Assembly (NCBI RefSeq): GCF_013408745.1 | Contig: NZ_JACCBJ010000001.1 | Location: 806,001-870,000, forward strand | Length of the DNA stretch: 64,000 nucleotides | Source: Leifsonia soli | GTDB taxonomy: Bacteria > Actinomycetota > Actinomycetes > Actinomycetales > Microbacteriaceae | Direction of reading: 5' to 3' | Shown: piece after piece, positions 24,132-64,000 of the stretch | Numbering within the stretch: position 1 is the stretch's first letter | How the letters are laid out: every line of letters begins with the position of its first letter | Position numbers and translations under genes: made by a program | Notes under the pieces: model-generated | The model's database searches: none | What the model saw: the letters and a program-made list of their open reading frames with translations, nothing else | What the model was told of the DNA's origin: nothing

Positions 24132-24208
24132 GGTGGGTATAGCTCAGTTGGTAGAGCGCCTGGTTGTGGTCCAGGAGGTCGCGGGTTCAAGCCCCGTTAC
24201 TCACCCCA
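24132..24208 (+). tRNA. tRNA-His (anticodon GTG)
   Basis: Full cloverleaf: acceptor GTGGGTA (24133-24139) pairs with TACTCAC (24198-24204); the extra G at 24132 (G-1) pairs with C73 at 24205, the identity mark of tRNA-His; anticodon GTG at 24166-24168 in a TTGTGGT loop; T arm GGGTTCAAGCCCC. CCA is encoded at 24206-24208. Confidence 0.97.
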
Positions 24209-24211
24209 CAC

Positions 24212-49983: not shown

Positions 49984-51440
49984 CGCTGCTGCTCGCCGGG
50001 GCGCGGCTGCCCGGACGCGACGGGCTCGTGGATGTTGTGATCGACGGCGGACGGATCGCATCGGTCGAGCCGACCGGATCGGCGACGGGCGTGGCAGCGG
50101 GGGAGCGCATCCCGCTCGACGGCCGCTGGCTGGTGCCGGGCCTGTGGGATCAGCACGTGCACTTCACGCAGTGGGCGCAGACCGCGCGCCGGTTGGATGT
50201 GTCCCGCGCCGGGTCTGCCGCCGAGGCCGCCGCGCTGGTGCGGGCCCGCGCCGAGGCGTCACCGGCGGACTCGCCGGACGACGTGCTCGTGGGCTTCGGC
50301 TTCCACGATGCGCTGTGGCCGGACGTCCCGACACGCGAGCTGCTGGACGCCGCCGCCGGCGACCGCCCGGTCGTCCTGATCGCCGGCGACCTGCACTGCT
50401 CCTGGCTGAACAGCGCTGCCGCCGCGCGGTTTGCCCCCGGCACGCCCGATGCCGTGCTGCGGGAGGACGCCAGCTTCGCCGTGACCAGCCTGCTCACCGC
50501 CGCGGACGACGCGACCCTCGACCGCTGGGCGGCCGACGCCGCCCGGGTCGCCGCGACCCGCGGGGTGGTCGGCATCGTCGACCTCGAGTACGGCTGGAAT
50601 CTCGACGTGTGGCGGCGGCGCATCGCCGACAGCGCTCCCGGGCTGCGGGTCGAGTTCGGCATCTACGGCGACCATCTCGACCGCGCCGCGAGTCTCGGGT
50701 TGCGGACGGGGGACGTGGTGGAGGGCACCGGGGGCCTGCTCACCGTCGGCCCGTACAAGGTGATCTCCGACGGCTCCCTGAACACCCGCACCGCGCTGTG
50801 CACGCACGCCTACCCGGACGGCGGCCACGGCGTCGCCAACCTCGCACCGAGCGAACTGGTCGAGCGGATGCGGTTCGCCGTCGACCACGGACTGGTCCCC
50901 GCCGTCCACGCGATCGGCGACGAGGCGAACCGTCGCGCGCTCGACGCCTTCGAGGCCGTCGGCGCGGGCGGCCGGATCGAGCACGCCCAGCTGATCGACG
51001 CATCCGACATCCCGCGCTTCGCCCGGCTCGGCGTGACCGCGAGCGTGCAACCCGAGCATGCGATGGACGACCGGGATGTCGCCGAGCGGCTCTGGCCCGG
51101 CCGCACCGACCGCGCCTTCCCGCTCGCGGACCTCCACGCCGCGGGCGCCCGCCTCGCGTTCGGCTCCGATGCGCCCGTCGCGCCCCTCGACCCCTGGGCG
51201 GCGATCGCCTCCGCCGTCGGCCGCTCCCGCGACGGGCGTGACCCGTGGCATCCCGAGCAGTCGCTTCCGCCCGAGGCCGCCCTGGGGGCGTCCGTGCGCT
51301 CGTCCGTCACGCCGGCCGGGCCGGCCGACCTCGCGGTGCTCGACCGCGACCCCCTGACGTCCGCGCCCGACGACCTCCGCACCATGCCGGTCGCGGCGAC
51401 CTTCGTCGCCGGCCGCGCCACCCACGACACCCTCCGCTGA
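49980..51440 (+). CDS. Amidohydrolase-family protein (YtcJ/AepA-like)
   Basis: 486 aa. Metal-dependent hydrolase: N-terminal urease-like beta-sandwich strand (LLLAGARLPGRDGLVDVVID), metal site WDQHVHF, then VISDGSLNTRTALCT, HAIGDEANRRALDAFEA with His ligands, QPEHAMDDRDVAERLW, and FGSDAPVAPLDP with the catalytic Asp. These are the landmarks of the N-substituted formamide deformylase/YtcJ group. Substrate unknown. Overlaps the preceding stop by 4 bases. Confidence 0.9.
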   Translation: MTLLLAGARLPGRDGLVDVVIDGGRIASVEPTGSATGVAAGERIPLDGRWLVPGLWDQHVHFTQWAQTARRLDVSRAGSAAEAAALVRARAEASPADSPDDVLVGFGFHDALWPDVPTRELLDAAAGDRPVVLIAGDLHCSWLNSAAAARFAPGTPDAVLREDASFAVTSLLTAADDATLDRWAADAARVAATRGVVGIVDLEYGWNLDVWRRRIADSAPGLRVEFGIYGDHLDRAASLGLRTGDVVEGTGGLLTVGPYKVISDGSLNTRTALCTHAYPDGGHGVANLAPSELVERMRFAVDHGLVPAVHAIGDEANRRALDAFEAVGAGGRIEHAQLIDASDIPRFARLGVTASVQPEHAMDDRDVAERLWPGRTDRAFPLADLHAAGARLAFGSDAPVAPLDPWAAIASAVGRSRDGRDPWHPEQSLPPEAALGASVRSSVTPAGPADLAVLDRDPLTSAPDDLRTMPVAATFVAGRATHDTLR

Positions 51441-51463
51441 CCTCCCCGCCCCTCGACGGCGCC

Positions 51464-51522
51464 ACGATTTGCGCCAAAAGTGCGTTCTGGCGCCGCCATA
51501 ACGGCGATGTGGCGCACATCTC
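51464..51522. repeat. Imperfect palindromic element between amidohydrolase and dps genes
   Basis: The segment starting GATTTGCGCC (51466) and the complement of the segment ending GGCGCACATC (51520) match at about 21 of 29 positions around a centre near 51493. It precedes a separate hairpin terminator (51540-51569), so it is not required for termination. Confidence 0.45.
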
Positions 51523-51539
51523 GCAGGGATGAACGACGA

Positions 51540-51569
51540 AGGGGCCGCCCGCATCCGCGGACGGCCCCT
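51540..51569 (-). terminator. Hairpin terminator of dps
   Basis: AGGGGCCGCCCGC pairs with GCGGACGGCCCCT with one mismatch, loop ATCC. 20 bases downstream of the dps stop. Confidence 0.7.
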
Positions 51570-51589
51570 CGCACCGGAAGCGGCGCGGT

Positions 51590-52072
51590 CTACTCGCTGA
51601 TGTGCGCGAACAGGAACCAGCGGTCCTTGTCGAGCCCGCGGGCGATCTCGATCGCGACGTCCTGGCTGGTCTGGTCGAGCTCCGCCAGCTCGCGCACCGC
51701 GGTGTTCACACCGGCGAGGGCCGCGTCGAGCTGTGCGATGACCTCGGCGATGGTCTCGTTCGAGGGGCGGAACCCGGCGGTGAGCTCGCCGGTCGTGGTC
51801 TTGGCGGCGACGGTCCCGAGGCGGGCGTCGACCGGGAGGCCGAGAGCGACGATGCGCTCTGCGGCGAGGTCGGCCCACTCCTGGGCGTGGTCCACGATCG
51901 TGTCCAGCAGCTCGTGCACGCCGATGAAGTTGGCTCCGCGCACGTGCCAGTGGGCCTGCTTGCCGTTGACCACGATCGCGGTCAGGTCGATGACGACGGG
52001 GGTGAGGAACTGGGCGACCCCGGCGGCGACGTCCGGGTTCGAGACACTCTGGGTTGCGGCGATGTCCGTCAT
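51590..52072 (-). CDS. dps: Dps-family DNA-binding ferritin
   Basis: 160 aa. Forms a dodecamer that oxidises and stores iron and shields DNA. The intersubunit ferroxidase residues line up with Listeria Dps: His41 (QAHWHVRG), His53 and Asp57 (GVHELLDTIV), Asp68 and Glu72 (EWADLAAERI). The N-terminal tail is short and not very basic. Upstream is a candidate iron-regulator (DtxR/IdeR) site at 52147-52165. Confidence 0.95.
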   Translation of the reverse strand: MTDIAATQSVSNPDVAAGVAQFLTPVVIDLTAIVVNGKQAHWHVRGANFIGVHELLDTIVDHAQEWADLAAERIVALGLPVDARLGTVAAKTTTGELTAGFRPSNETIAEVIAQLDAALAGVNTAVRELAELDQTSQDVAIEIARGLDKDRWFLFAHISE

Positions 52073-52146
52073 GGTTGGCGTCCTTTCTTCTGCCTGCCAT
52101 AACGCTACTCAGGCCGCTGAATTCCGCAACGAAGCGAAGGCTCGGC

Positions 52147-52165
52147 TTAGTTAGCCTGCCCTGTC
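52147..52165. promoter_or_regulatory. Candidate DtxR/IdeR iron box
   Basis: TTAGTTAGCCTGCCCTG at 52147-52163 keeps most of the TTAGGTTAGSCTAACC consensus (10 of 13 over the core). It lies about 75 bases upstream of the dps start, in the gap shared with the divergent histidine kinase gene. Confidence 0.35.
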
Positions 52166-52303
52166 ATCCGCCCGTCTCGGGTTAACCCCCGGACGGTTCC
52201 GGCGGCACTCGGGATGGGGCCGCGAGCCGCGGACGACGAGGCTCGAAGCAGGACATCGGAACCGCTCCGCCCGCCGGAAGCGGACCACGAAAGGACGCCA
52301 GTC

Positions 52304-53704
52304 ATGACCACAGAGACGGACACCGGGCAGCCCGGGGCCGCCCGACCTTCTGCCACGCTGGATGCTGTGACACCATCCCAGCCCCACCCCGCCCGCTTGG
52401 GCTACGGCTCGCTCTGGCGCGGGGTGCCGCGCGAGCTCGGCTTCCTGCTGCTCACCATGCCGATCGCGATCGTCGGGCTGTCCGTGCTGATGTCGCTGTT
52501 CTGGACGGGCGTCGGCACCATCGTGATCTACGTCGGCTTCTTCATCATCGTCGCCGCCTTCTACACGGCCCGCGGCTTCGGCGTCGTCGAGCTGACGCGA
52601 CTGGACTGGGCGGGCCGGCCGGCCATCCCGCGCCCGGTCTGGGAGAAGCCGGGCACCCCGCGCACGTTCCTCCGGGCCGTCTTCGGTCCGTTCGCGAACG
52701 GCCACTACTGGCTTTACCTGCTGCACGGCATGATCATCAACCCGATCGTCAGCATCTTCTCCTGGACGGTGACCATCGTCTGGGCGTCGGTCGCCCTGGG
52801 CGGCCTGACCGGCTGGATCTGGGAGCCGTTCATCCCGCAGGGGGACCGCAGCTTCTTCCTCTCGCAGACCGTGGTGGATGCGGTGTTCCGCACGACGTCG
52901 ACCTTCGACCCGACCGTCGGCGACCGCATCCTGTACCTGATCGCCGGCGTCCTGTTTGCCGTGACCCTGCCGTTCGTGACGCGCGGCCTGACCTTGATGC
53001 ACGAGGGCATCGCCCGCGGCGTGCTCGGGCGCTGGCCGTCGGAGGCGCTGCAACGCGAGGTCGCCGACCTGTCCGCATCGCGCGGTGCGGCCGTCGCGGC
53101 GGAGGATCAGGCCCTGCGCCGGCTGGAGCGCGACCTGCACGACGGTCCGCAGCAGCGCCTCATCCGGTTGCAGATGGACATCGCGGCCGCCGAGCGCAAG
53201 CTCGCCGACGACCCGGACGCCGCCGCGACGCTGCTCGCCGAGGCGCGCCAGCAGGCGGGCGACACCCTGGAGGAGCTGCGGGCCCTGTCGCGCGGCTTCG
53301 CCCCGCCCATCCTGCAGGACCGCGGCCTGGTCGCCGCTGCGGAGTCGCTCGCCGCGCGCAGCCCCATCCCGGTCACCGTGGAGTCGTCGCTGCAGCCGGG
53401 GGAGCGGTTCAGCCCGGAGATCGAGCGGAACGCCTACTACGTGCTGGCGGAACTGGCCGCGAACCTGGCCAAGCACTCCGGCGCGCAGGCCGGCCGGCTC
53501 TTCCTGGAGCGGGTGGTGGATGGGTCGGGCGCCGCCTGGCTGAGCGTCTGGCTGACCGACAACGGCCGCGGGGGAGCCTCCCTCGTCGACGGCCACGGCC
53601 TGCGCGGGCTGGAGGAGCGGGTGCGCGGTCTGCGCGGCGAGCTCGTGGTCGACAGCCCGGAGGGCGGTCCGACGCGGATCGGCGCGCGCATCCCGCTCGC
53701 CTGA
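52304..53704 (+). CDS. Sensor histidine kinase with N-terminal membrane sensor domain
   Basis: 466 aa from ATG at 52304 (AAAGGA 9 bases upstream). Residues 35-240 form a four-helix membrane sensor domain (LGFLLLTMPIAIVGLSVLMS; IVIYVGFFIIVAAFYTARGF; IVSIFSWTVTIVWASVALGG; ILYLIAGVLFAVTLPFVTRG), like PF13796-type sensors; phosphoacceptor His279 in LERDLHDGPQQRL; ATPase N-box ELAANLAKH and G-box GHGLRGLEERVRGL. It pairs with the response regulator 94 bases downstream; the gap carries a long perfect inverted repeat. Confidence 0.93.
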   Translation: MTTETDTGQPGAARPSATLDAVTPSQPHPARLGYGSLWRGVPRELGFLLLTMPIAIVGLSVLMSLFWTGVGTIVIYVGFFIIVAAFYTARGFGVVELTRLDWAGRPAIPRPVWEKPGTPRTFLRAVFGPFANGHYWLYLLHGMIINPIVSIFSWTVTIVWASVALGGLTGWIWEPFIPQGDRSFFLSQTVVDAVFRTTSTFDPTVGDRILYLIAGVLFAVTLPFVTRGLTLMHEGIARGVLGRWPSEALQREVADLSASRGAAVAAEDQALRRLERDLHDGPQQRLIRLQMDIAAAERKLADDPDAAATLLAEARQQAGDTLEELRALSRGFAPPILQDRGLVAAAESLAARSPIPVTVESSLQPGERFSPEIERNAYYVLAELAANLAKHSGAQAGRLFLERVVDGSGAAWLSVWLTDNGRGGASLVDGHGLRGLEERVRGLRGELVVDSPEGGPTRIGARIPLA

Positions 53705-53725
53705 CCGCCCGCCCGTCCCCTGCTC

Positions 53726-53771
53726 GACACGACACGCCGTCCGGCCACCCGCCGCGACGGCGTGTCGTGTC
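53726..53771. repeat. Perfect 16-base inverted repeat between kinase and regulator genes
   Basis: Arms GACACGACACGCCGTC (53726-53741) and its exact complement (53756-53771), 14-base loop. It resembles the element at 61066-61120: both contain CGACACGCCGT facing ACGGCGTGT. Confidence 0.85.
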
Positions 53772-53786
53772 AACCGGATGCGGCCC

Positions 53787-53798
53787 TAGGCTGGGGTG
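53787..53798 (+). promoter_or_regulatory. Leaderless-type promoter box of the response regulator
   Basis: TAGGCT at 53787-53792, 6 bases, then GTG at 53799. The right arm of the inverted repeat ends 16 bases upstream and so occupies the -35 position. Confidence 0.5.
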
Positions 53799-54464
53799 GT
53801 GCCGAGCGACCCCAGCCCCGTCCCGTTGCGCGTCGTCGTCGCGGACGACTCCGTCCTGCTGCGCGAGGGTCTCATCCGGCTGTTCGACGAGGCCGGCTTC
53901 GACACCGTCGGCGCGTTCGGCGACGCCGACACGCTGCTGGAGGCCGTGCCCGACCTGATGCCCGATGTCGCGGTGCTCGATGTGCGGATGCCGCCGACGT
54001 TCCGCGACGAGGGTGTGCGGGCCGCGCTGCGCATCCGCCGCGAACATCCGTCGATCGCCGTGCTGCTGCTGTCGCAGTACGTCGAGGGGACCTACGCGCA
54101 GGAGCTGCTGGCCGGCGGCGAAGGCGGAACCGGCTACCTGCTGAAGGACCGCATCGCCTCCCTCGACGAGCTGCGGGATGCGGTGACCCGTGTCGCCGCG
54201 GGCGGAACGGTGCTCGACCCGCAGGTGGTCCGCGAGCTGCTGACCCGCCGCACCGACCCGCTGGAGCGCCTGACCCCGCGCGAGCGGGAGGTGCTGGAGC
54301 TGATGGCCGAGGGCCGGACGAACGCCGCGATCGCCGCGCGCATGGTCGTCGGCGTCGGCGCGGTGGAGAAGAACGTCACCTCGATCTTCCAGAAGCTGGG
54401 CTTGGAGGACTCCGGCGACGACCACCGCCGGGTGCTGGCGGTACTGGCCTTCCTGCAGCGCTGA
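53799..54464 (+). CDS. NarL/LuxR-family response regulator
   Basis: 221 aa from GTG at 53799 (a GTG one codon earlier is also possible). Receiver: VVVADDSVLLREGL with the acidic pair, phosphoacceptor Asp61 (VAVLDVRMPP), Lys in YLLKDRI. LuxR HTH: LTPREREVLELMAEGRTNAA then GAVEKNVTSIFQKLGLE. It is the partner of the kinase at 52304. Because it has its own promoter box it may be expressed apart from the kinase. Confidence 0.94.
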   Translation: MPSDPSPVPLRVVVADDSVLLREGLIRLFDEAGFDTVGAFGDADTLLEAVPDLMPDVAVLDVRMPPTFRDEGVRAALRIRREHPSIAVLLLSQYVEGTYAQELLAGGEGGTGYLLKDRIASLDELRDAVTRVAAGGTVLDPQVVRELLTRRTDPLERLTPREREVLELMAEGRTNAAIAARMVVGVGAVEKNVTSIFQKLGLEDSGDDHRRVLAVLAFLQR

Positions 54465-54480
54465 GGTGTTGGATGGCCGC

Positions 54481-54693
54481 ATGGCTGGATTCGACGACAT
54501 CACCAAGAAGGCGCAGGAGTTCCTGAACGACCCGAAGGTCAAGGACGCGCTCAGCTCCGAGCAGGCGGAGGACGTCAGCGACAAACTCCTCGACGGCGTC
54601 GCCGGCGCCGCGAAGAAGGTCACCGGCGGCAAGTTCGACGACAAGATCGACGGCGCGCGCGACGCCGCCGACAAGCACGTCGGCAACGAATAG
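54481..54693 (+). CDS. Small charged protein, MT0933-like (Rv0909-type antitoxin family)
   Basis: 70 aa, all polar and helical: MAGFDDITKKAQEFLNDPKV ... DKLLDGVAGAAKKVTGGKFD, DAADKHVGNE. This matches the MT0933-like antitoxin family in name, but no toxin gene lies next to it, so an antitoxin role is doubtful; such proteins also resemble CsbD-like stress proteins. ATG at 54481, 16 bases after the regulator stop. Confidence 0.72.
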   Translation: MAGFDDITKKAQEFLNDPKVKDALSSEQAEDVSDKLLDGVAGAAKKVTGGKFDDKIDGARDAADKHVGNE

Positions 54694-54728
54694 CGGTCAC
54701 GGCATACGCGGCCCGCGAGAATGGGCCG

Positions 54729-55097
54729 ATGGCACAGGAACCCGTCACCCGCATCACCCTCGCCGACCACGACCTGGGGGCGACGATCGGCATCGGCCAC
54801 GTCGAGGTGCGGCGGATCACGATCGCTCCCGGGGTGCAGCCGGGCGCGCACTGGCACAACGGACCGGTGTTCGGCGTCATCGAGCAGGGCTCCGTGTATG
54901 TCCAGATCGGCGAGGACGCGGAGCGGGTGCTCGGGCCGGGCGACACCTTCTACGAGCCGCCCCGCGCGACCATCACACGGTTTGACGCGACCAGCGAAGG
55001 CGTGACGTTCTTGGGATGGTTCCCGCTGCCGGGCGACGAGCGGCCCGAACTCACGATGGGACCTGCGGAGGGGCAGGAAGGTCGAGCGAGCGCGTGA
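54729..55097 (+). CDS. Cupin-domain protein
   Basis: 122 aa, a single cupin barrel. Motif 1 PGVQPGAHWHNGPVFGVIEQ with metal-binding His residues (HWH) and Glu; motif 2 GPGDTFYEPPRATIT lacks the usual His. Probably a metal-binding small-molecule enzyme or sensor. The end overlaps nothing but is 1 base from the stop of the convergent membrane protein gene. Confidence 0.88.
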   Translation: MAQEPVTRITLADHDLGATIGIGHVEVRRITIAPGVQPGAHWHNGPVFGVIEQGSVYVQIGEDAERVLGPGDTFYEPPRATITRFDATSEGVTFLGWFPLPGDERPELTMGPAEGQEGRASA

Positions 55098-55098
55098 A

Positions 55099-55770
55099 TC
55101 AGTCGCTCGGCCGCAGCGGCCGGTAGATGCGGAACGCCTTGTTGTAGGTCCGCATGCCCCAGAGCAGTGAGATCACGACGACCGCAATGGCGACGATCCC
55201 GCCCAGCACGGCCGCGACGACGGGATGCGCGCCGAGCGCCCACGACGTCCCGCCGACGAGCAGGCCGACGACGATCGCCTCCACGATGGTGATGATCATC
55301 ATGGAGCTGCCGAGCACCGGACTGGCCCCGCGCGGATAGAAGAAGTGGTACGTGACCCGCGCTCCGTCCTCGTCGTCGTGAGCAGAAGCCAGCAGGTACT
55401 GCTCGAGCCCGGGGTCGAGCTCCACGTACGCCGCCCGCAGCCGATTCATGGCCACCACGTACATGAGATCCTCACTGGCGGTGTTGAACGCCCGCACCTC
55501 GGTGACCAGCCCGAGCAGCGCGAGCGCGAGCAGTACCCCGAGCGCCGCCACCCCGAACCACCCGCGGAACCCACTCGCCTGCCCGATGAACCCGAGCGTC
55601 ACCAGCCCGGCCGACACGAGCGTCAGGAAGATGGCGATCCGGGTCAGCACCTCGCTCTGCGTCGTACTCCGCGACGCCAGCAGCCCCCAGTGCTCGGTCG
55701 CGAGCAGTTGCGCCCGCAGGCTGCGCTGCGCATCCGTGAGCCCGTCGCCGGGCGGCGGTGGTGCCGTCAT
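55099..55770 (-). CDS. Membrane protein of unknown function, 223 aa
   Basis: ATG at 55770 is preferred to an upstream one. Four hydrophobic helices in two pairs (IAIFLTLVSAGLVTLGFIGQ, FGVAALGVLLALALLGLVTE; MMIITIVEAIVVGLLVGGTS, VVAAVLGGIVAIAVVVISLL) separated by a soluble segment of ~75 residues (EDLMYVVAMNRLRAAYVELD). This is the layout of small bacterial membrane proteins without known function. It is the last core gene before the tRNA-Gly island. Confidence 0.72.
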   Translation of the reverse strand: MTAPPPPGDGLTDAQRSLRAQLLATEHWGLLASRSTTQSEVLTRIAIFLTLVSAGLVTLGFIGQASGFRGWFGVAALGVLLALALLGLVTEVRAFNTASEDLMYVVAMNRLRAAYVELDPGLEQYLLASAHDDEDGARVTYHFFYPRGASPVLGSSMMIITIVEAIVVGLLVGGTSWALGAHPVVAAVLGGIVAIAVVVISLLWGMRTYNKAFRIYRPLRPSD

Positions 55771-55838
55771 GGGGGCATTGTGGCGCTGGATGCGCGGGTG
55801 CGGCACCAGCGGATGTGACGGTGAGTGACACGGTGTGT

Positions 55839-55883
55839 GGAGGGGATGACGGGAATCGAGCCTGCGTAATCAGTTTGGAAGAC
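55839..55883. repeat. Left attachment-site copy: 45-base duplicate of the tRNA-Gly 3' half
   Basis: Matches 59265-59309 at 43 of 45 positions; it covers the tRNA from the anticodon loop to the 3' end plus two flanking bases. The rest of a tRNA is missing, so this is not a gene. It marks the far boundary of the island as expected for a tyrosine recombinase element inserted at a tRNA 3' end. Confidence 0.88.
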
Positions 55884-56177
55884 CCTACAAAGGGCTGAAC
55901 CGAGGTCAACCGAACTGAACCATCGCAGACCGCTCTGACCCGTCTTGCCCAGTGTTTTCCTGGGAAGGTTGCGAGTTCGGGCCCCGTTACTCAGCGCACG
56001 CAGGTGCGGCGCGGTTCGCGTCGGCGGTGCGCGGTGACGGGGTTTTCGGCTATCTGACGGGGATTGCCTGATCAGTTTCAATACGGGGTTGGGAGCAGCG
56101 CGATTGTCTCGGCTTACCGTTCGGACGTGGTGCCAACAATCGGTTCGCCTGTTTCGTCGACAACGATCAGCCGCGAT
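55884..56177. other. Island left end, no supported gene
   Basis: About 290 bases between the attachment copy and the recombinase remnant. It contains a fragment resembling the 3' end of tRNA-His (55965-55999) and a stretch (55995-56012, CGCAGGTGCGGC-GCGGT) similar to the sequence just beyond the intact tRNA-Gly (59343-59358). Open frames here are out of phase with the recombinase remnant and look decayed. Confidence 0.6.
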
Positions 56178-56448
56178 GAGCTGGCCGCCGAGGTCGCGAG
56201 CTTACATGCGCCCGCTGCTGCGGGAACTGGGATTGCCGCCAAAGATGCGCTGGCACGACCTCCGCCACACCTAGGCGAGCCTCATGCTGGCCGCGGGCAT
56301 CGCGCCGTACAAGCTCAGCCGGTGGATGAGACACGCCTCCCTCGTCACAACGGACACGGTCTACTCGCACCTGTACCCGAGCGACTACAGTGCGGAGATC
56401 GCCCAGTTCGAGGCGTTCGCGTCGGCGAGTCGCGCGGCGTACGTCTAA
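56178..56448 (+). pseudogene. Tyrosine recombinase/integrase remnant with internal stop
   Basis: Only the C-terminal catalytic part is readable: RAYMRPLLRELGLPPKMRWH then DLRHT with the first catalytic Arg, a TAG at 56272-56274, then in the same frame ASLMLAAGIAPYKLSRWMRH (second Arg and His) and TTDTVYSHLYPSDY with the nucleophile Tyr, ending TAA at 56446-56448. The N-terminal arm-binding and core domains are missing. It is broken both by truncation and by the amber codon. It is the presumed integrase of the tRNA-Gly island. Confidence 0.88.
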
Positions 56449-57719
56449 CGCTTGCCTTGCGGGGCGGGCAGCTGCCAGGATCCGTACCTCAGATAGAACG
56501 AGAGGAATGGATCCAAAATGTGCAGTTCGTCGTTCTTGTAGTCCAACGCGGCGTCGCCCGCACCGCGAGCGTCCCGAGCGATATTTGCCATGTGCCCGAG
56601 TGAACTGGTTACTTGCTGAGACTGGGGGGCCTCAACGAAAAGTTCATCGATCTTGTGCGTAAGAGTCAGATAGGGAACCGTTCGCACAGGACCGAGCTTC
56701 GAAATCGAGTAGAGAATTGCCCCGTAGATATCGGTGACCCCACTCCTGTCTTTCAGGTGCCGTTCTGATCGCTCCTGACCGTGCGTTCGTGGACCTCTCG
56801 ACAGCGCATCGAAAACACCGGGCACGATCCTGTCCGCGACTCGCTTGAAGAACGCGGGCCAGTCGTCTTCCACAGACAGTTCGGTGGGCTTCGGCAACGT
56901 AGCGAAGATGTCTCGTTCCAAGCAATAGTCAAGACATAGCTGCTGCATCAGAAAGGGGGCGCCCATGCTCACTTCAGACAGCTTCTGGCCGACGACTTCG
57001 TTCGGATCCGTCAGGTTGAGTAACGGAAAACCTGTCCGAGAAATCTCCAGCAGCTCGTCCTGCTCCCACGGCAGAATCGTGAGATTCCAAATCCGCCCAT
57101 TCATATCCGGCTCTTGACGAACAGCTTCGAATGCTTCGTGCGGAACCGCGATCATGACGACGTGTGTTATCCGGATGAGCGCCTTGACGATGCGGGTAAG
57201 GTCGAGCTTCAAGGCTGCGTCCACGTAGTGGAAGTCATCGATCACAATGGGTACCGGCAAGTCCCGTAGCGCCTGTACTGCTACCTCTCCGGCATTCCTT
57301 GACCGCGTAGCGGTGTTTGTGTTTGTGGACGTGTACCCCCCGCCGACTTCCGCTCCGATGTGTCCGACCCCGGGAATGCCGAGCTGGCCTCTAATGGAGC
57401 CGGACCCGGTTCCCCCGGTCTGCTGTTGGGTGCCGATGATGTCATAAAGCCCATACCAGTCGATGATCTTGTCCCAGAAGTCCGCGACGGAGCGAAGATC
57501 GGTTCCGTTGATCCAGATTGTGGAATGGGCTGCAAGGTTATGCTCTAGAAGCACGGTCTTGCCCGACTTGGAAGGCCCCGACACTGTCAGGGCCTTGCCC
57601 TCGTCCTCTAGATATCGATTCAGCTCGGTCTCTTGTCGCCGAGCATCGCGGGGATTGTATGTATGTGCTGGGTAGCGCCCTGCAACAAACACTTCATTGG
57701 TACGCCTCGGCTCGACCAT
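56445..57719 (-). CDS. P-loop ATPase (STAND/AAA-like), candidate defence protein
   Basis: 424 aa. N-terminal EVFVAGRYPAHTYNPR box, Walker A GPSKSGKT at 48-55, a Gly/Ser/Thr-rich insertion (residues 100-140: GTGSGSIRGQLGIPGVGHIG), Walker B PIVIDDFHYV at 157-166, helical lid, and a C-terminal LHILDPFLSFYLRYGSW box (about 400-416), a closing motif I know from uncharacterised ATPases of mobile islands. No effector domain is recognisable. GC is visibly lower than the flanks (33 of 60 in the line at 57121). Starts 53 bases after the 80-aa gene; its stop overlaps the recombinase remnant. Confidence 0.85.
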   Translation of the reverse strand: MVEPRRTNEVFVAGRYPAHTYNPRDARRQETELNRYLEDEGKALTVSGPSKSGKTVLLEHNLAAHSTIWINGTDLRSVADFWDKIIDWYGLYDIIGTQQQTGGTGSGSIRGQLGIPGVGHIGAEVGGGYTSTNTNTATRSRNAGEVAVQALRDLPVPIVIDDFHYVDAALKLDLTRIVKALIRITHVVMIAVPHEAFEAVRQEPDMNGRIWNLTILPWEQDELLEISRTGFPLLNLTDPNEVVGQKLSEVSMGAPFLMQQLCLDYCLERDIFATLPKPTELSVEDDWPAFFKRVADRIVPGVFDALSRGPRTHGQERSERHLKDRSGVTDIYGAILYSISKLGPVRTVPYLTLTHKIDELFVEAPQSQQVTSSLGHMANIARDARGAGDAALDYKNDELHILDPFLSFYLRYGSWQLPAPQGKR

Positions 57720-57731
57720 AACCAGATGCTA
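57720..57731 (-). promoter_or_regulatory. Leaderless-type promoter box of the island ATPase
   Basis: On the minus strand TAGCAT (57731-57726), 6 bases, then the ATG at 57719. So the ATPase may be transcribed on its own as well as from the upstream gene. Confidence 0.5.
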
Positions 57732-57772
57732 GGGCAACCAGACGGCCAAATGCGGGCGACACGATCGCTTGC

Positions 57773-58015
57773 TTACTTACCCCGGAAGCGCTCTGCGGCG
57801 GTCCATACGGGCGGCAGTTTTCGAAGCAGCCGAAGTGGGCGAACAAGATATTCGACTTTGGGCCTTCCTGTTACGTCATACCCGAGGAATCGCATGTCGA
57901 CAATCACCCAACGGGTGCCGTTGATGACGCCTCGAACAATGTCTCCCACGCGACGTCCATGAACAGGGTCGGCCAGATTGCCCAGCCCGATCAGTTTCCG
58001 CAGAAGCTCGTTCAT
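57773..58015 (-). CDS. Small island protein, 80 aa, unknown
   Basis: Not recognised. N-terminal helix (MNELLRKLIGLGNLADPVHG), then a beta-rich middle (GDIVRGVINGTRWVIVDMRF then LGYDVTGRPKVEYLVR) and a basic C-terminus. No signal peptide, membrane helix or cysteines. It is upstream of the ATPase on the same strand with a 53-base gap and has the same lower-GC composition. It could be a regulator, a sensor or the trigger-recognition partner of the ATPase, or simply a phage-derived protein. Confidence 0.65.
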   Translation of the reverse strand: MNELLRKLIGLGNLADPVHGRRVGDIVRGVINGTRWVIVDMRFLGYDVTGRPKVEYLVRPLRLLRKLPPVWTAAERFRGK

Positions 58016-58108
58016 CTCTTCATCATCGCAGCCCGAGGAGACGGGGTCCTGACGGGATCAACTCCCGGAGCGGTTCGCTCAACGGGCCGCTTGGCCAGTG
58101 TTTACAAC

Positions 58109-58136
58109 GGAGGGGATGACGGGAATCGAACCCGCG
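58109..58136. repeat. Middle attachment-site copy (28 bases of tRNA-Gly 3' end)
   Basis: Identical over 28 bases to 59265-59292 (begins GGAGGGGATGACGGGAATCG), covering the T arm and acceptor end. The following bases diverge at once. It splits the island into a left segment (recombinase remnant and ATPase pair) and a right segment (zinc-ribbon gene). Confidence 0.88.
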
Positions 58137-58234
58137 CACGCGAACTCGCTTATGCCCAGATCGCGGCGACATGCACAACAGTCCTCGACGTTTGCTAGAG
58201 CGTTGATGCTCGCTTGTGCTGTCAGGATGACGTC

Positions 58235-59191
58235 ATGGAGATGTCCGAGGCTGAAGAACGCCGCATCCGCGACTATGTTAACTCGCAGTCCCCGGAGGGC
58301 GACCAGGCAGGGGTTATTCAAAGAGTTGGGTCGCGCCGCATCCTCGGGCGGGAACGCGACCTCTACGACGTCCACTGCGTGGAGTCGCGTTGGTGGGTGA
58401 TAACCGACCCCACGAACCTCTACTCGCAAGACGACTTCCCGGAGTTGGAGCAGGCGCTCATCTTCCATATCGGGCTGCAGGTGTTCATGGCCGAGCGCGA
58501 GCGCACAGACATGGAAGAAGAGCGGCTCGAACATGTCAGCACGTCGTGGCGGAGGTTCCAACAGGCTGTGGACGCCATGAACACCGCAGGCGAGGCGGAG
58601 GACTACCAGGCTGTCGGCATCAAGTGCCGAGACTCGCTCATCGCCCTTGCGAAGACGCACGCCGATGCGGAGTGGATAGGTGACCTGAACGAGCGACCGA
58701 AGGCTGCGGACTTCAAGGGATGGGCGAACATCTTCGCCGACCGGCTCTCCGAAGGGCGGATGCGCGCCTATGTGAAGGCGCTGGTAGAGAAGACCTGGGA
58801 CCTCGCGGTCTGGCTCCAGCACAACAGCAACGCCACCCCCGTTGATGCGGACATCGTGATTGAGGCGACAGGCCAAGTACTCAACGTCATGAGCAAGCTG
58901 ATGCGCCAGCAGGAGGTAGGCCCGCCCGAGCGCTGCCCCAAGTGCGAGTCCTATCGCCTGGAGGAGGACATCGAGCAGGTCATGGAACCGGAACCGGGGT
59001 ACTACGAGTCGATCGTTTGCGGCTCCTGTGGCTGGCGAACCGACCGAGAGTTCACGAGCCTGCGTGACCACTTCGAGGGAACGCGGGTGCTGGAGTATCT
59101 GACGACTCCGGCAGATGGCCCCTCCGACCGGCTGGGCCACGAGCGGCTGCCGCGCCTCGGCGGCGCGACGGGGACGAACGAGGACGCTTAG
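58235..59191 (+). CDS. Island protein with C-terminal zinc ribbon, 318 aa
   Basis: Start at 58235 with AGGA 8 bases upstream; a TTG at 58214 and ATG at 58241 are alternatives. Domains: N-terminal alpha/beta region (residues 1-100, LYDVHCVESRWWVITDPTNL), a helical domain (about 105-220) with AVGIKCRDSLIALAKTHADA, KAADFKGWANIFADR and LAVWLQHNSNATPVDADI, and a zinc ribbon (about 230-275) CPKC ... CGSC. The helical part recalls HEPN-like helical proteins of restriction or abortive-infection loci, a weak resemblance. It is the only gene in the right island segment. Confidence 0.75.
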   Translation: MEMSEAEERRIRDYVNSQSPEGDQAGVIQRVGSRRILGRERDLYDVHCVESRWWVITDPTNLYSQDDFPELEQALIFHIGLQVFMAERERTDMEEERLEHVSTSWRRFQQAVDAMNTAGEAEDYQAVGIKCRDSLIALAKTHADAEWIGDLNERPKAADFKGWANIFADRLSEGRMRAYVKALVEKTWDLAVWLQHNSNATPVDADIVIEATGQVLNVMSKLMRQQEVGPPERCPKCESYRLEEDIEQVMEPEPGYYESIVCGSCGWRTDREFTSLRDHFEGTRVLEYLTTPADGPSDRLGHERLPRLGGATGTNEDA

Positions 59192-59266
59192 CCGACGCGG
59201 GTTCTCGCGGGGATTGTGGTTCGGGGCTCTCGGGGCCGTAGCCCGAGATCCCATACACGGACTGGG

Positions 59267-59337
59267 AGGGGATGACGGGAATCGAACCCGCGTAATCAGT
59301 TTGGAAGACTGAGGCTCTACCATTGAGCTACATCCCC
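59267..59337 (-). tRNA. tRNA-Gly (anticodon TCC), island insertion target
   Basis: Minus strand: acceptor GGGGATG pairs with CATCCCC, D arm TAGCTCAATGGTAGAGCC, anticodon loop CTTCCAA (TCC, reads GGA), T arm CGGGTTCGATTCCCG, discriminator U. No encoded CCA. Its 3' half is the copy reconstituted by the inserted island; the displaced copy is at 55839-55883. Confidence 0.96.
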
Positions 59338-59460
59338 GGCGCCGCAGGTGCGGCACGGTGGCCGCACGATTCTTCGCGGCGGCCGACGACCATCGTAGTA
59401 CACGCGCGGGGGAGCACGCGTGCAGTAGACTTGCCCACGGTCTTTCGCACCGCTTCAAGC

Positions 59461-59535
59461 CGGGGCGTAGCTCAGCTTGGCTAGAGCGCCCGCTTTGGGA
59501 GCGGGAGGTCGCAGGTTCAAATCCTGTCGCCCCGA
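59461..59535 (+). tRNA. tRNA-Pro (anticodon TGG)
   Basis: Acceptor CGGGGCG (59461-59467) pairs with CGCCCCG (59528-59534); anticodon stem CCCGC/GCGGG with loop TTTGGGA (TGG, reads CCA); T arm CAGGTTCAAATCCTG; discriminator A. No encoded CCA. 60 bases before tig. Confidence 0.97.
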
Positions 59536-59595
59536 CGAGGACCTCGTTCCTTGCGAGAAGACCATCGTTCGATCATTCAGGAGAACCCAGACATC

Positions 59596-61005
59596 GTGAA
59601 GACCACGGTCGAGAAGCTCAGCCCCACCCGCACCAAGCTCACCATCTCGGTGACGCCGGAGGAGCTGCAGCCTTCCATCAAGCACGCGTACGAGCACATC
59701 GCCGAGCAGGTGACCATCCCCGGTTTCCGCAAGGGCAAGGTGCCGCCGCCCATCATCGACCAGCGGGTCGGCAAGGCCGCCGTCCTGGAGCACGCGGTCA
59801 ACGAGGGTCTCGACGGCTTCTACCGTCGCGCCGTGGAGGAGAACGACGTTCGTCCCCTCGGCCGCCCGGAGGCCGACATCACCGAGTGGCCGAACGAGAA
59901 GGACTTCTCGGGCGACCTGCTCCTCACCATCGAGGTGGACGTGCGCCCCGAGGTGAAGCTGCCCGACTTCGACGACATCACCATCACGGTCGACGCGGCC
60001 GAGGTGGGCGTGGATGACGTGGAGGAGGAGCTGGATCGGCTCCGCAGCCGCTTCGGCACCCTCGTCACGGTCGACCGTCCCGCCAAGACCGGTGACTTCG
60101 CGCAGATCGACCTGGTCGCCGTCATCGGCGGCGAAGAGGTCGACACCGCCGCGAACATCTCCTACGAGATCGGCTCGGGCGAGCTCATCGACGGCATCGA
60201 CGAGGCCCTCGACACCCTCACCGCCGGCGAGACCACCACGTTCGAGGCGCCGCTCATGGGCGGTGACCACGAGGGTGAGAACGCGCAGATCACCGTCACG
60301 CTGAACGCCGTCAAGGAGCGCGAGCTTCCGGAGGCCGACGACGACTTCGCCCAGATCGCCAGCGAGTTCGACACCATCGGCGAGCTGCGTCAGAGCCTGC
60401 GCACGCAGGTCGAGCGCGCCAAGGTGTTCGGCCAGGGCACGGCCGCCCGCGACCAGCTGGTCGACAAGCTCCTCGAGCTGGTCGAGATCCCGGTCCCGGA
60501 GCAGCTGGTCGAGGACGAGGTCCACCGCCACCTGGAGCAGGAGAACCGCCTCGAGGACGACGTCCACCGCGCCGAGGTGAAGGAGTCCAGCGAGAAGACC
60601 TTCAAGACGCAGATCCTCCTCGACGAGGTCGCGCAGGAGAACGACGTCAAGGTCAGCCAGGACGAGCTCACCCAGTACCTCGTGCAGGGTGCCGCGCAGT
60701 ACGGCATGGACCCGAACGAGTTCGTCAAGATCCTCAGCGAGAACGGCCAGATCCCGTCGATGGTCGGCGAGGTCGCCCGCAACAAGGCGCTCGCGATCAT
60801 CCTCGGCAAGGTGAAGGTCGTCGACAGCAACGGCAAGCCGGTCGACCTGGCCGAGTTCACCGCGATCGCCGACGGCGACGACACCGACGCCGAGGCTCCG
60901 GGCGACGAGGCCCCCGCGGCTGAGGAGGCCCCCGCCGAGGAGGCCCCCGCCGCCGAGGAGAAGCCCAAGAAGCGCTCCACCAAGAAGAAGGCCGACGACA
61001 AGTAA
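59596..61005 (+). CDS. tig: Trigger factor (ribosome-associated chaperone/PPIase)
   Basis: 469 aa from GTG at 59596, matching the conserved start (M)[18 protein letters not shown]. Ribosome-binding motif [14 protein letters not shown] near residue 45 (family GFRxGKxP), FKBP-type PPIase domain about 150-250 ([34 protein letters not shown]), helical C-terminal arms, then an acidic Ala/Pro/Glu tail ([13 protein letters not shown]) and a Lys-rich end. AGGAG lies 12 bases upstream. Conserved neighbour of clpP-clpX. Confidence 0.96.
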
Positions 61006-61021
61006 CCGTCTCGCCGTCACG

Positions 61022-61057
61022 AAGCCGGGTCCGCGCCCTCCAGCGCGGCCCGGCTTT
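61022..61057 (+). terminator. Terminator of tig
   Basis: AAGCCGGGTCCGCG pairs with CGCGGCCCGGCTT with one bulged base, then TTTC. 17 bases after the tig stop. Confidence 0.75.
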
Positions 61058-61065
61058 CGTGCATC

Positions 61066-61120
61066 TGTGGGACGCGACACGCCGTTCTGGCACGATGGTG
61101 ACGGCGTGTTGCGCCCCACA
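61066..61120. repeat. 20-base inverted repeat between tig and the TPR gene
   Basis: Arms 61066-61085 and 61101-61120 are complements at 18 of 20 positions, loop of 15 bases. The inner part GCGACACGCCGT / ACGGCGTGTTGC matches the core of the element at 53726-53771. It follows a normal terminator directly and so is an additional structure. Confidence 0.82.
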
Positions 61121-61144
61121 GACCGAACGGATGAAGGAGTGCGG

Positions 61145-61630
61145 ATGGACGACTGGCGACAGCGGGTGGATGCGGTCTGGGCCGACGCGGACGACACGCG
61201 CGAACAGCAGACGCTCGACACGATCGACGCCCTCGTCGCGGAGCGCCCCGCCAACGACCCGGAGGCGCTGTTCGAGGCGGCCAGCGCCCGCGACTTCGCC
61301 GGCCGCGAGGTCGACGCGGAGCCGTTCTACCGCGCAGCGCTCGCTCACGGCCTCGCCGAGCCGTACCGGGGGCAGGCGATCGTGCAGCTGGCGAGCACCC
61401 TCCGCAACCTCGATCGTCCGGCTGAGGCGCTCGGCCTGCTGCGCGACTTCCTCGGCGCAGAGCCCGAGCATCCCCTCGCCGACGCCGCCCGCGCGTTCGC
61501 CGCGCTCTGCCTCTTCGACGACGGGATGCCGGCCGACGCGCTCCGCGAAGCGCTCGGCGCCCTCGCCCCGCACCTGCCGCGGTACAGCCGCTCGGTGACC
61601 GCCTACGCGGCCGCGCTCGACGACGACTGA
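61145..61630 (+). CDS. Tetratricopeptide-repeat protein, 161 aa
   Basis: ATG with AAGGAG 6 bases upstream. Helical repeat pairs: [60 protein letters not shown], in the TPR_5 style of small actinobacterial proteins. A scaffold for protein contacts, partner unknown. It sits between tig and clpP1, so a link with protein quality control is possible but unproven. Confidence 0.85.
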
Positions 61631-61705
61631 CCACCGCATCCGACCCCGGCCGCCCGGCTCTCTCTGCCGAGGGCGAACAGCGCCGAATTGCGCCCGGCCC
61701 TCCGA

Positions 61706-61711
61706 TAGATT
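61706..61711 (+). promoter_or_regulatory. -10 box of the clpP1-clpP2 operon
   Basis: TAGATT at 61706-61711, 33 bases before the clpP1 ATG. No TTGAC-like -35; upstream GCGAAC-AGCGCC (61671-61682) vaguely resembles a ClgR site. Confidence 0.45.
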
Positions 61712-61743
61712 CGACACCAAGCGACAAAGGAAACGGAGCGAAC

Positions 61744-62337
61744 ATGGCCGATATGGGTATCCAGCCCAGTGTTTTCGACAGACTTCTCAAGGACCGGATC
61801 ATCTGGCTCGGTTCGGAGGTCCGGGACGAGAACGCGAACGAGATCGCCGCGAAGCTGCTGCTCCTGGCCGCGGAGGACCCCAAGCGGGACATCTACCTCT
61901 ACATCAACTCCCCGGGTGGCTCGATCACCGCGGGCATGGCCATCTACGACACGATGCAGTTCGTCCCGAACGACATCGTCACGGTCGGCATCGGAATGGC
62001 CGCGTCGATGGGGCAGCTGCTCCTCACCGCGGGCACCAAGGGCAAGCGCTACATCACCCCGAACGCACGCGTTCTTCTGCACCAGCCGCACGGCGGGTTC
62101 GGCGGAACGGCGAGCGACATCCAGACCCAGGCTCAGCTCATCATCGACATGAAGAACCGCCTCGCCCAGATCACCGCTGAGGCGACCGGCAAGTCGGTCG
62201 AGCAGATCAACGCCGACGGCGACCGCGACCGCTGGTTCACCGCTCAGGAGGCGCTGGAGTACGGCTTCGTCGACCACATCCGGGAGTCGGCCCTCGACGT
62301 CTCGGGCGGCGGCGGAACCGAGCCGGAGTCCAAGTAG
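61744..62337 (+). CDS. clpP1: ATP-dependent Clp protease proteolytic subunit ClpP1
   Basis: 197 aa. Serine protease forming the degradation chamber with ClpP2. Triad Ser88 (GMAASMGQ), His113 (LLHQPHGG), Asp162 (GDRDRW). The N-terminal propeptide is short ([10 protein letters not shown]). RBS GGAAACGGAG 5-14 bases upstream. Oxyanion GG in INSPGGS. The C-terminal Gly-rich tail ([11 protein letters not shown]) is disordered. Cotranscribed with clpP2 after 31 bases. Confidence 0.97.
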
Positions 62338-62368
62338 CAGGCCGCTGAATAGGAATAGGACAAATTCG

Positions 62369-63037
62369 ATGAACACCCCCATGCTCGGCGGTCAGGCCTT
62401 CAGCGGCGTTCAGGCGCCCGGCGCCCGCTACATCCTCCCCAGCTTCGAGGAGCGCACGGCGTACGGCTACAAGCGTCAGGACCCGTACGCGAAGCTCTTC
62501 GAGGACCGCATCATCTTCCTCGGCGTGCAGGTGGACGACGCGTCCGCCGACGACATCATGGCCCAGCTCCTCGTGCTGGAGAGCCAGGACCCGGACCGCG
62601 ACATCGTCATGTACATCAACTCGCCCGGTGGCTCGTTCACCGCGATGACGGCGATCTACGACACGATGCAGTACATCCGTCCGCAGATCCAGACCGTCGT
62701 GCTCGGCCAGGCCGCATCGGCCGCCGCCGTGCTGACGGCCGCCGGCACCCCCGGCAAGCGTCTGGCGCTGCCGAACGCCCGCATCCTCATCCACCAGCCC
62801 GCCGTCGGCGAGGCCGGACAGGGGCAGGCGTCCGACATCGAGATCCAGGCCAACGAGATCATGCGGATGCGCACCTGGCTGGAGGAGACGCTCTCGAAGC
62901 ACTCCAACCGCTCGGTGGAGCAGGTCAACAAGGACATCGACCGCGACAAGATCCTGTCGGCGGCCGAGGCCCTCGAGTACGGCCTGATCGACCAGGTGCT
63001 CACCAGCCGCAAGTCGCTTCCGGCGCTGGTCAAGTAA
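62369..63037 (+). CDS. clpP2: ATP-dependent Clp protease proteolytic subunit ClpP2
   Basis: 222 aa. Second ring subunit of the actinobacterial ClpP1P2 protease. Triad Ser117 (GQAASAAAV), His142 (LIHQPAVG), Asp193 (DIDRDKIL). Longer N-terminal region than ClpP1 (residues 1-40), consistent with a processed propeptide. In mycobacteria the two subunits form a mixed complex that binds ClpX and ClpC1; same is expected here. Confidence 0.97.
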   Translation: MNTPMLGGQAFSGVQAPGARYILPSFEERTAYGYKRQDPYAKLFEDRIIFLGVQVDDASADDIMAQLLVLESQDPDRDIVMYINSPGGSFTAMTAIYDTMQYIRPQIQTVVLGQAASAAAVLTAAGTPGKRLALPNARILIHQPAVGEAGQGQASDIEIQANEIMRMRTWLEETLSKHSNRSVEQVNKDIDRDKILSAAEALEYGLIDQVLTSRKSLPALVK

Positions 63038-63051
63038 GCCGCGACACCCGC

Positions 63052-63087
63052 AACGGGGTGGCCGTCCTCACGGGCGGCCACCCCGTT
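63052..63087 (+). terminator. Hairpin terminator after clpP2
   Basis: AACGGGGTGGCCGTCC pairs with GGGCGGCCACCCCGTT with one mismatch, loop TCAC-type. clpX therefore probably has its own promoter. Confidence 0.75.
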
Positions 63088-63176
63088 CGTGCGTCCGGCG
63101 GGAGTCATCTGCTGTGAGCAGAACCGCCGCGTGAACGAAAACGGCCGGGCTGCGCATCATTGTCGTCCGCACGGGT

Positions 63177-63182
63177 TAGGCT
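63177..63182 (+). promoter_or_regulatory. -10 box of clpX
   Basis: TAGGCT at 63177-63182, 35 bases before the ATG, followed by the strong RBS GAAGGAGGGG (63200-63209). Confidence 0.5.
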
Positions 63183-63216
63183 CGTCTGAACAGACCCGAA
63201 GAAGGAGGGGAGAGGG

Positions 63217-64000
63217 ATGGCACGCATCGGGGAAAGCGCCGATCTGCTCAAGTGTTCCTTCTGTGGCAAGAGCCAGAAGCAGGTCCAGCAGCTCATCGCT
63301 GGTCCTGGCGTGTACATCTGCGACGAGTGCGTCGAGCTCTGCAACGAGATCATCGAGGAGCGACTCGCCGAGGCGGGTGAGGAGGCATCGAGCGAGTTCG
63401 ACCTTCCGAAGCCCAAGGAGATCTTCGGGTTCCTGGAGGAGTACGTCATCGGCCAGGAGCAGGCCAAGCGCGCTCTGGCCGTCGCGGTGTACAACCACTA
63501 CAAGCGCGTCCGCGCCCGGCAGAGCCTCACGGCCGCCGACACGATGGACGACGTCGAGATCGCGAAGTCGAACATCCTGCTGATCGGCCCGACCGGCTGC
63601 GGCAAGACGTACCTCGCGCAGACGCTGGCCCGGCGCCTCAACGTGCCGTTCGCGGTCGCCGACGCGACCGCCCTCACCGAGGCCGGCTACGTCGGAGAAG
63701 ACGTCGAGAACATCCTCCTCAAGCTCATCCAGGCCGCCGACTACGACGTCAAGCGGGCCGAGACGGGCATCATCTACATCGACGAGGTCGACAAGATCGC
63801 CCGCAAGGCCGAGAACCCGTCGATCACGCGCGACGTCTCCGGCGAGGGCGTGCAGCAGGCGCTGCTGAAGATCCTCGAGGGCACGGTCGCGTCGGTCCCG
63901 CCGCAGGGCGGTCGCAAGCACCCGCACCAGGAGTTCATCCAGATCGACACGACGAACGTGCTGTTCATCGTGGCGGGCGCGTTCGCCGGGCTGGAGGAGA
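63217..64000 (+). CDS. clpX: ClpX, N-terminal 261 residues (runs off the window)
   Basis: AAA+ unfoldase that feeds substrates to ClpP1P2. N-terminal zinc-binding domain with Cys13, Cys16, Cys35, Cys38 ([15 protein letters not shown]), then the [16 protein letters not shown] start of the AAA domain, Walker A GPTGCGKT at 124-131, [11 protein letters not shown] pore-loop-1 region, Walker [16 protein letters not shown], and [19 protein letters not shown]. The sequence ends within the sensor region; the C-terminus is outside the window. Confidence 0.97.

Follow-up and report, generated by a model that had tools for sequence, protein, structure and literature searches.

The 3' end of a tRNA-Gly(TCC) gene is an integration hotspot in this genus, and the locus analysed here is a decayed island at that hotspot, of a known kind that resembles the CIMEs (cis-mobilizable elements). 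The locus lies within a window of 64 kb, i.e. the whole stretch of DNA that was analysed (806001-870000 of a 3.9-Mb single-contig genome). Very probably, an integrase-bearing element, unit A (55839-58108), inserted at the hotspot and lost most of its integrase, so becoming a CIME-like relic, and a further insert, unit B, later arrived at the restored tRNA gene to give a tandem accretion. The observed basis for this history comprises the tRNA-derived repeats, both ends of unit A, an integrase remnant, empty sites and varied cargo in relatives, and an open-frame relative of the integrase at the same tRNA.

The target site and its counterparts in relatives

The gene order at the site is tRNA-Gly(TCC), tRNA-Pro and then the trigger factor gene; the features of the island are given in Table 1. 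The repeat that brackets the island extends over 45 bases from the anticodon stem to the 3' end of tRNA-Gly, with two mismatches, and a pattern describing both copies (up to three mismatches allowed) occurs at only two places in the 64 kb and nowhere in 100 dinucleotide shuffles. Units A and B have GC contents of 59% and 63%, respectively, compared with 72% (50000-55838) and 68% (59338-64000) in the flanks. The earlier note had described the repeat, the intact tRNA-Gly at its other end and the lower-GC interior, and in each of these respects, including the coordinates and identity of the repeat, its account was confirmed.

Table 1. Positions (numbered within the window) of the features of the tRNA-Gly(TCC) locus, with the evidence for each
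Feature	Position	Strand	Evidence
Left-flank gene, adjoining the empty site in relatives; membrane protein by eye	55102-55770	minus	relatives' loci
Distal attachment site, displaced tRNA-Gly 3' half	55839-55883	minus	43/45 versus 59265-59309
Unit A left end (attP arm)	55885-56079	plus	nhmmer left-end model, 153 bits, E 8e-46
tRNA-His 3'-end-like block inside the unit A left end	55964-55995	plus (opposite to the tRNA-Gly fragment)	left-end model, alignment
Remnant of a tyrosine integrase, reduced to the C-terminal part and with one internal stop	56203-56448	plus	alignment to 381-aa relative
424-aa P-loop ATPase, open frame, main gene of unit A; PADLOC candidate PDC-S59	56445-57719	minus	PADLOC
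80-aa ORF, no family	57773-58015	minus	Pfam, PADLOC, PHROGs, NCBIfam
Unit A right end (attP arm)	58041-58107	plus	nhmmer right-end model, E 9e-13
Partial tRNA-Gly 3'-end copy (the third), where units A and B adjoin	58109-58136	minus	28/28, E 8e-7 (own genome)
Unit B, probable second small insert	58137-59264		position between the unit A right end and tRNA-Gly; 63% GC
Protein of about 320 aa in unit B	58214-59191	plus	relatives on plasmids (identity up to 63%)
Intact tRNA-Gly(TCC), target gene	59265-59337	minus	ARAGORN; Rfam tRNA at 59267-59337

The locus is present in each of the 28 genomes searched within the genus, the window's own among them, and 2.4 to 17 kb of it was covered in each of the 27 relatives (in G022 it falls on two contigs). 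The left-flank gene was found in eight of these relatives. In G009, G014, G015 and G026 it is separated by 124 to 221 bp from a single tRNA-Gly, and in G018, G019, G021 and G024 the distance is 1.9 to 6.9 kb. G005, G016 and G023 have a different gene, located farther to the left in the flank of the window, at 79 to 144 bp from the tRNA, so these sites look empty too. Empty sites are therefore present in at least 4 of the 27 relatives, and nine relatives carry other inserts. The joined flanks of the window align to G009, G015 and G026, the spacing between gene and repeat being 68 bp in the window versus 124 to 194 bp in those three genomes; the intergenic part of G014 is not clearly similar to the joined flanks. 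The empty site that the earlier note had proposed to look for in related genomes is thus present, and the outcomes that it had named as contrary to insertion were not seen, in that the ATPase, the 80-aa ORF and the 320-aa protein are all absent from this place in the 27 relatives (tblastn, E 1e-4) and the composition is not core-like. Just to the left of the island, a cupin gene (54729-55097) lies between two flank genes and is also without a counterpart here in all 27 relatives (tblastn, E 1e-4), and hence is possibly another small acquisition.

In G002, G011, G013, G017, G018 and G024 other inserts are bounded, on the side away from the tRNA, by a second tRNA-Gly fragment, which in G022 lies on another contig; where both tRNA copies could be placed, the A-type inserts span approximately 1.7 to 6.8 kb. 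Tandem duplication of the tRNA was rejected as the source of the repeats, because the left-flank gene adjoins a single tRNA copy in four relatives, and because the nearby second copies lie kilobases from the tRNA, that of G027 being about 103 kb away and that of G022 on a separate contig.

The ends of unit A were located with a left-end model derived from five relatives (G002, G017, G018, G022 and G024) and a right-end model derived from eight (the same five with G019, G021 and G027), the window being excluded from both; the best value obtained with block-shuffled controls was E 0.92. Weaker matches of the left-end model are to an element in Cryobacterium (E 1.5e-8) and to an old left-end scrap in G013 (E 1.4e-9). 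As the models were built from the A-type genomes themselves, independent tests are limited to the window and the Cryobacterium element, the latter matched by the left-end model and not by the right-end model. The 70 bp adjoining tRNA-Gly are similar in G002, G017, G018, G019, G021, G022 and G024, and in G027 a similar 70-bp right end adjoins the displaced tRNA copy. In G019 and G021 the A-type right end is present, but a left tRNA fragment and a match to the left-end model are both absent; a 39-nt scrap of the right end was found in G016 (E 4e-5).

Two of these sites have further features of their own. The scrap in G013 (L045 12365-12437) is an older A-type left end, lying to the left of a different element and, by eye, including part of a tRNA-Gly end. 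In G027 (G027:C1, L061 7932-8044) the A-type right end, together with a tRNA-Gly fragment of 44 nt, lies some 103 kb from the tRNA-Gly gene and adjoins an ORF resembling another integrase, and the site is rearranged or stacked.

The right ends are similar among inserts that share few genes, and the integrase is broken wherever it was traced in the genus, observations that would also fit a process in which the ends are fixed and the cargo is swapped by homologous recombination via conserved ends and flanks, rather than by repeated site-specific integration. Such swapping is a serious but doubtful alternative, since insertion and loss are required as well by the empty sites and by G011 and G013, where the inserts at this tRNA have unlike ends.

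Units A and B and the proposed order of events

The sole significant right-end match in the window adjoins the 28-nt tRNA copy at 58109, i.e. 1.2 kb short of the tRNA, and it is for this reason that unit A is taken to end at 58108. It follows that 58137-59264 is probably a second unit, and that the 3.4 kb probably comprises two units, A and B, rather than one element. The view of the earlier note, in which the 28-nt copy did not figure, that a 3.4-kb element had integrated here therefore holds with respect to there being an island, given the empty sites in relatives, but probably not with respect to its being one element.

The proposed history, as read from sequence comparison, would begin with recombination of a tyrosine-integrase element (unit A) within the anticodon-to-3'-end segment of tRNA-Gly, by which the gene would have been restored with the element's own copy and its old 3' half displaced to the distal site. 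A later internal deletion would have spared both ends and the cargo ATPase but little of the integrase. Unit B would then have entered at the restored tRNA, leaving the 28-nt fragment between A and B. The alternative that all 3.4 kb is a single element, which carried in the 28-nt copy as an internal feature, would account for the one 45-nt repeat bracketing the entire stretch, and for the lack in unit B of a recombinase or of recognisable ends of its own. It is quite improbable, however, given that the A-type right ends of seven relatives lie directly against the tRNA, whereas the only significant right-end match in the window lies against the 58109 copy.

With respect to unit B in the two-unit history, no recombinase was recognised in its one gene, and the possibility that it is another A-type element was rejected, there being no match to the A-end models at its ends. 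Since it is without a recombinase, its ends are unlike the A models, and the fragment at its junction is 28 rather than 45 nt long, unit B may have entered by a route other than site-specific recombination. The likelier start of its 320-aa protein is the ATG at 58235. Zinc-ribbon-like cysteines can be discerned by eye near the C terminus, with a Pfam match at only E 0.08; no family matches above its curated cut-off, the best library match being to PADLOC Cas4c (E 0.006, over 50 residues). Relatives of this protein are present in 8 of 299 genomes drawn from the family, own included (E 1e-10), and among plasmid DNA matches, the 8 listed of 56 are to relatives of the unit B gene or are short matches to the tRNA region.

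Integrase remnant and left-end structure

A tyrosine recombinase remnant next to the left repeat, as perceived in the earlier note, is borne out by comparison with a 381-aa relative: 56203-56424 aligns to its residues 306-379 with 61% identity over 74 aa, alignment to residues 304-379 gives 59% identity with one in-frame TAG, and one piece matches the PHROG 1 integrase (E 7e-5). Unit A retains about 74 of the 381 residues. The relative is encoded by an open frame in Cryobacterium psychrotolerans at the same tRNA-Gly(TCC), where it adjoins tRNA-Gly(TCC), tRNA-Pro and a trigger factor gene, the product of which is 74% identical to that of the window. A 45-nt displaced tRNA-Gly fragment lies 10.7 kb from tRNA-Gly in this genome, and Pfam analysis of eight proteins of the element identified a phage integrase, a resolvase, a Toprim/AAA protein and an HTH protein.

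Within the 28 whole genomes (E 1e-8), integrase matches above 45% identity are to broken pieces only, which occur in four genomes (G000, G017, G018 and G019) and in each case at this locus, with a frame break in G017, a gap, frame break and stop in G018, and only the C terminus in G019. The remaining matches do not exceed 37% identity, apart from a 73-residue match of 39% in G009 (E 1e-8). In plasmids and phages, 32 and 680 records, respectively, contain relatives of the G017 integrase, all at below 60% identity, and no close relative of it, or of the two cargo proteins, was found in viral contigs. The inserts in G002, G021 and G024, which keep the right end without an integrase trace, might suggest minimal elements that an integrase from another locus still mobilises in trans, rather than dead relics, but this is highly improbable, as the 28 genomes contain no intact integrase of this type above 45% identity and their full-length ones are at most 36% identical. 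Unit A would now be immobile.

The left end of unit A has a composite structure, in that a block resembling the 3' end of tRNA-His is located about 80 bp inside the tRNA-Gly block. In six aligned left ends, mean pairwise identity peaks at the tRNA-Gly core (up to 0.98), at 55974-55993 within this block (0.92) and at a GACGGGG arm motif (0.91). The left-end model, built without window sequence, also matches the tRNA-His gene at 24174-24209 (E 1.7e-6); the copy of the block in G024 is 97% identical over 31 nt to the tRNA-His of the window, the window's own copy being more diverged, and the block is absent from the Cryobacterium element. The G024 left end matches 157 of the 299 family genomes, among the matches listed mostly over the tRNA-His block alone; within the genus the matches over this block are tRNA-His genes. 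A comparison of the left end with phage DNA gave a match to one record, over the tRNA part only.

It may be that this bipartite attachment region marks an element that uses, or once used, two tRNA genes, and that a change of integration target is preserved in the genus, an unlikely reading but one that the pairing of tRNA-Gly and tRNA-His blocks in one left end would make testable. A-type elements at tRNA-His were sought and rejected, as no right-end match (E 0.1) was found in loci of up to 1.5 kb around tRNA-His in the 28 genomes. The left-end model matches there via the tRNA block; in G012 and G017 the match continues 39 and 24 nt beyond the tRNA, respectively, a gain of about 4 bits. In G000, G004 and G023, other blocks resembling tRNA-His were likewise rejected as sites of such elements, having no tRNA, integrase of this type or A right end within 9 to 17 kb.

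As separate observations, tRNA-His-like 3' blocks occur at L117 ~8889 (G000:C1:3415889), L118 and L119 without a tRNA gene in the 9 to 17 kb examined, the surroundings of the block being near-identical in G000 and G023. In G016, G007 and G004 (L113, L111 and L106) tRNA-His is followed immediately downstream, without an intervening insert, by a degenerate second copy of its 3' part.

Cargo and relationship to known systems

Unit A probably carries candidate defence cargo, as judged from profile matches. The ATPase aligns with PDC-S59 over its full length (E 3e-21, residues 6-415 on positions 4-405 of the 428 in the profile); in the source describing it (PMC11514479), the PADLOC label PDC denotes a phage defence candidate and not a tested system. 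The match of the ATPase to AAA_16 (E 1.5e-4) is below the cut-off for that family. Relatives of the ATPase are present in 3 of the 299 family genomes, own included (E 1e-10), one of which, in G273 (62% identity), adjoins type I restriction genes. For the 80-aa ORF, Pfam, PADLOC and PHROGs gave nothing at values up to E 1, and NCBIfam gave only PNPH (E 0.17, 11 bits versus a cut-off of 293). Comparison with solved structures gave nothing useful for the two cargo proteins (best E 0.32).

The cargo of inserts in relatives, as far as their proteins were scanned (Pfam/PADLOC), varies. It includes AbiTii and, weakly, a TIR-type effector in G018; SEFIR, DUF5343 and PDC-M34A in G019; a Swt1-like HEPN protein and DUF5343 in G021; TIR in G022; an ApeA-like match below its cut-off in G002; and, in G024, genes for metal efflux (cation efflux and an ArsR-type regulator). 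Three scanned proteins of G017 gave no Pfam match, nor did the two of them scanned in PADLOC give a match there, and several scanned proteins of G019 and G022 were without a match.

No description of this tRNA-Gly locus was found among the literature titles and opening parts of abstracts that were listed. The locus illustrates, by comparison of genomes, how small and often defence-like islands arrive, decay and stack at a tRNA hotspot of one actinobacterial genus, with empty sites, broken integrases and, at the same tRNA, an integrase relative whose frame is open.

CIMEs, and CIME accretion at a tRNA gene, have been described (PMC5704250). As in that description of CIMEs, unit A has lost its integration genes and retains both attachment ends, as evidenced by the repeat and the end-model matches; as in accretion, a further element (B) would lie between the relic and the restored target gene. 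With respect to the descent of CIMEs from conjugative or mobilizable elements, no relaxase or transfer gene was recognised among the eight scanned Cryobacterium proteins. The tRNA-targeted tyrosine-integrase islands of the Islander database, as described (PMC4383910), have a displaced tRNA 3' fragment, a regenerated tRNA and an integrase inside; the intact tRNA, the displaced fragment and the empty site in relatives are all present here, although the integrase is only a remnant and two units probably lie in tandem. In comparison with the integration hotspots and defence islands described in Escherichia coli (PMC10121019), the inserts considered here are very small (about 1.7 to 6.8 kb), occur in an actinobacterium and have a defence role that is a predicted one; as in E. 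coli, one and the same site holds defence-like cargo that differs from genome to genome.
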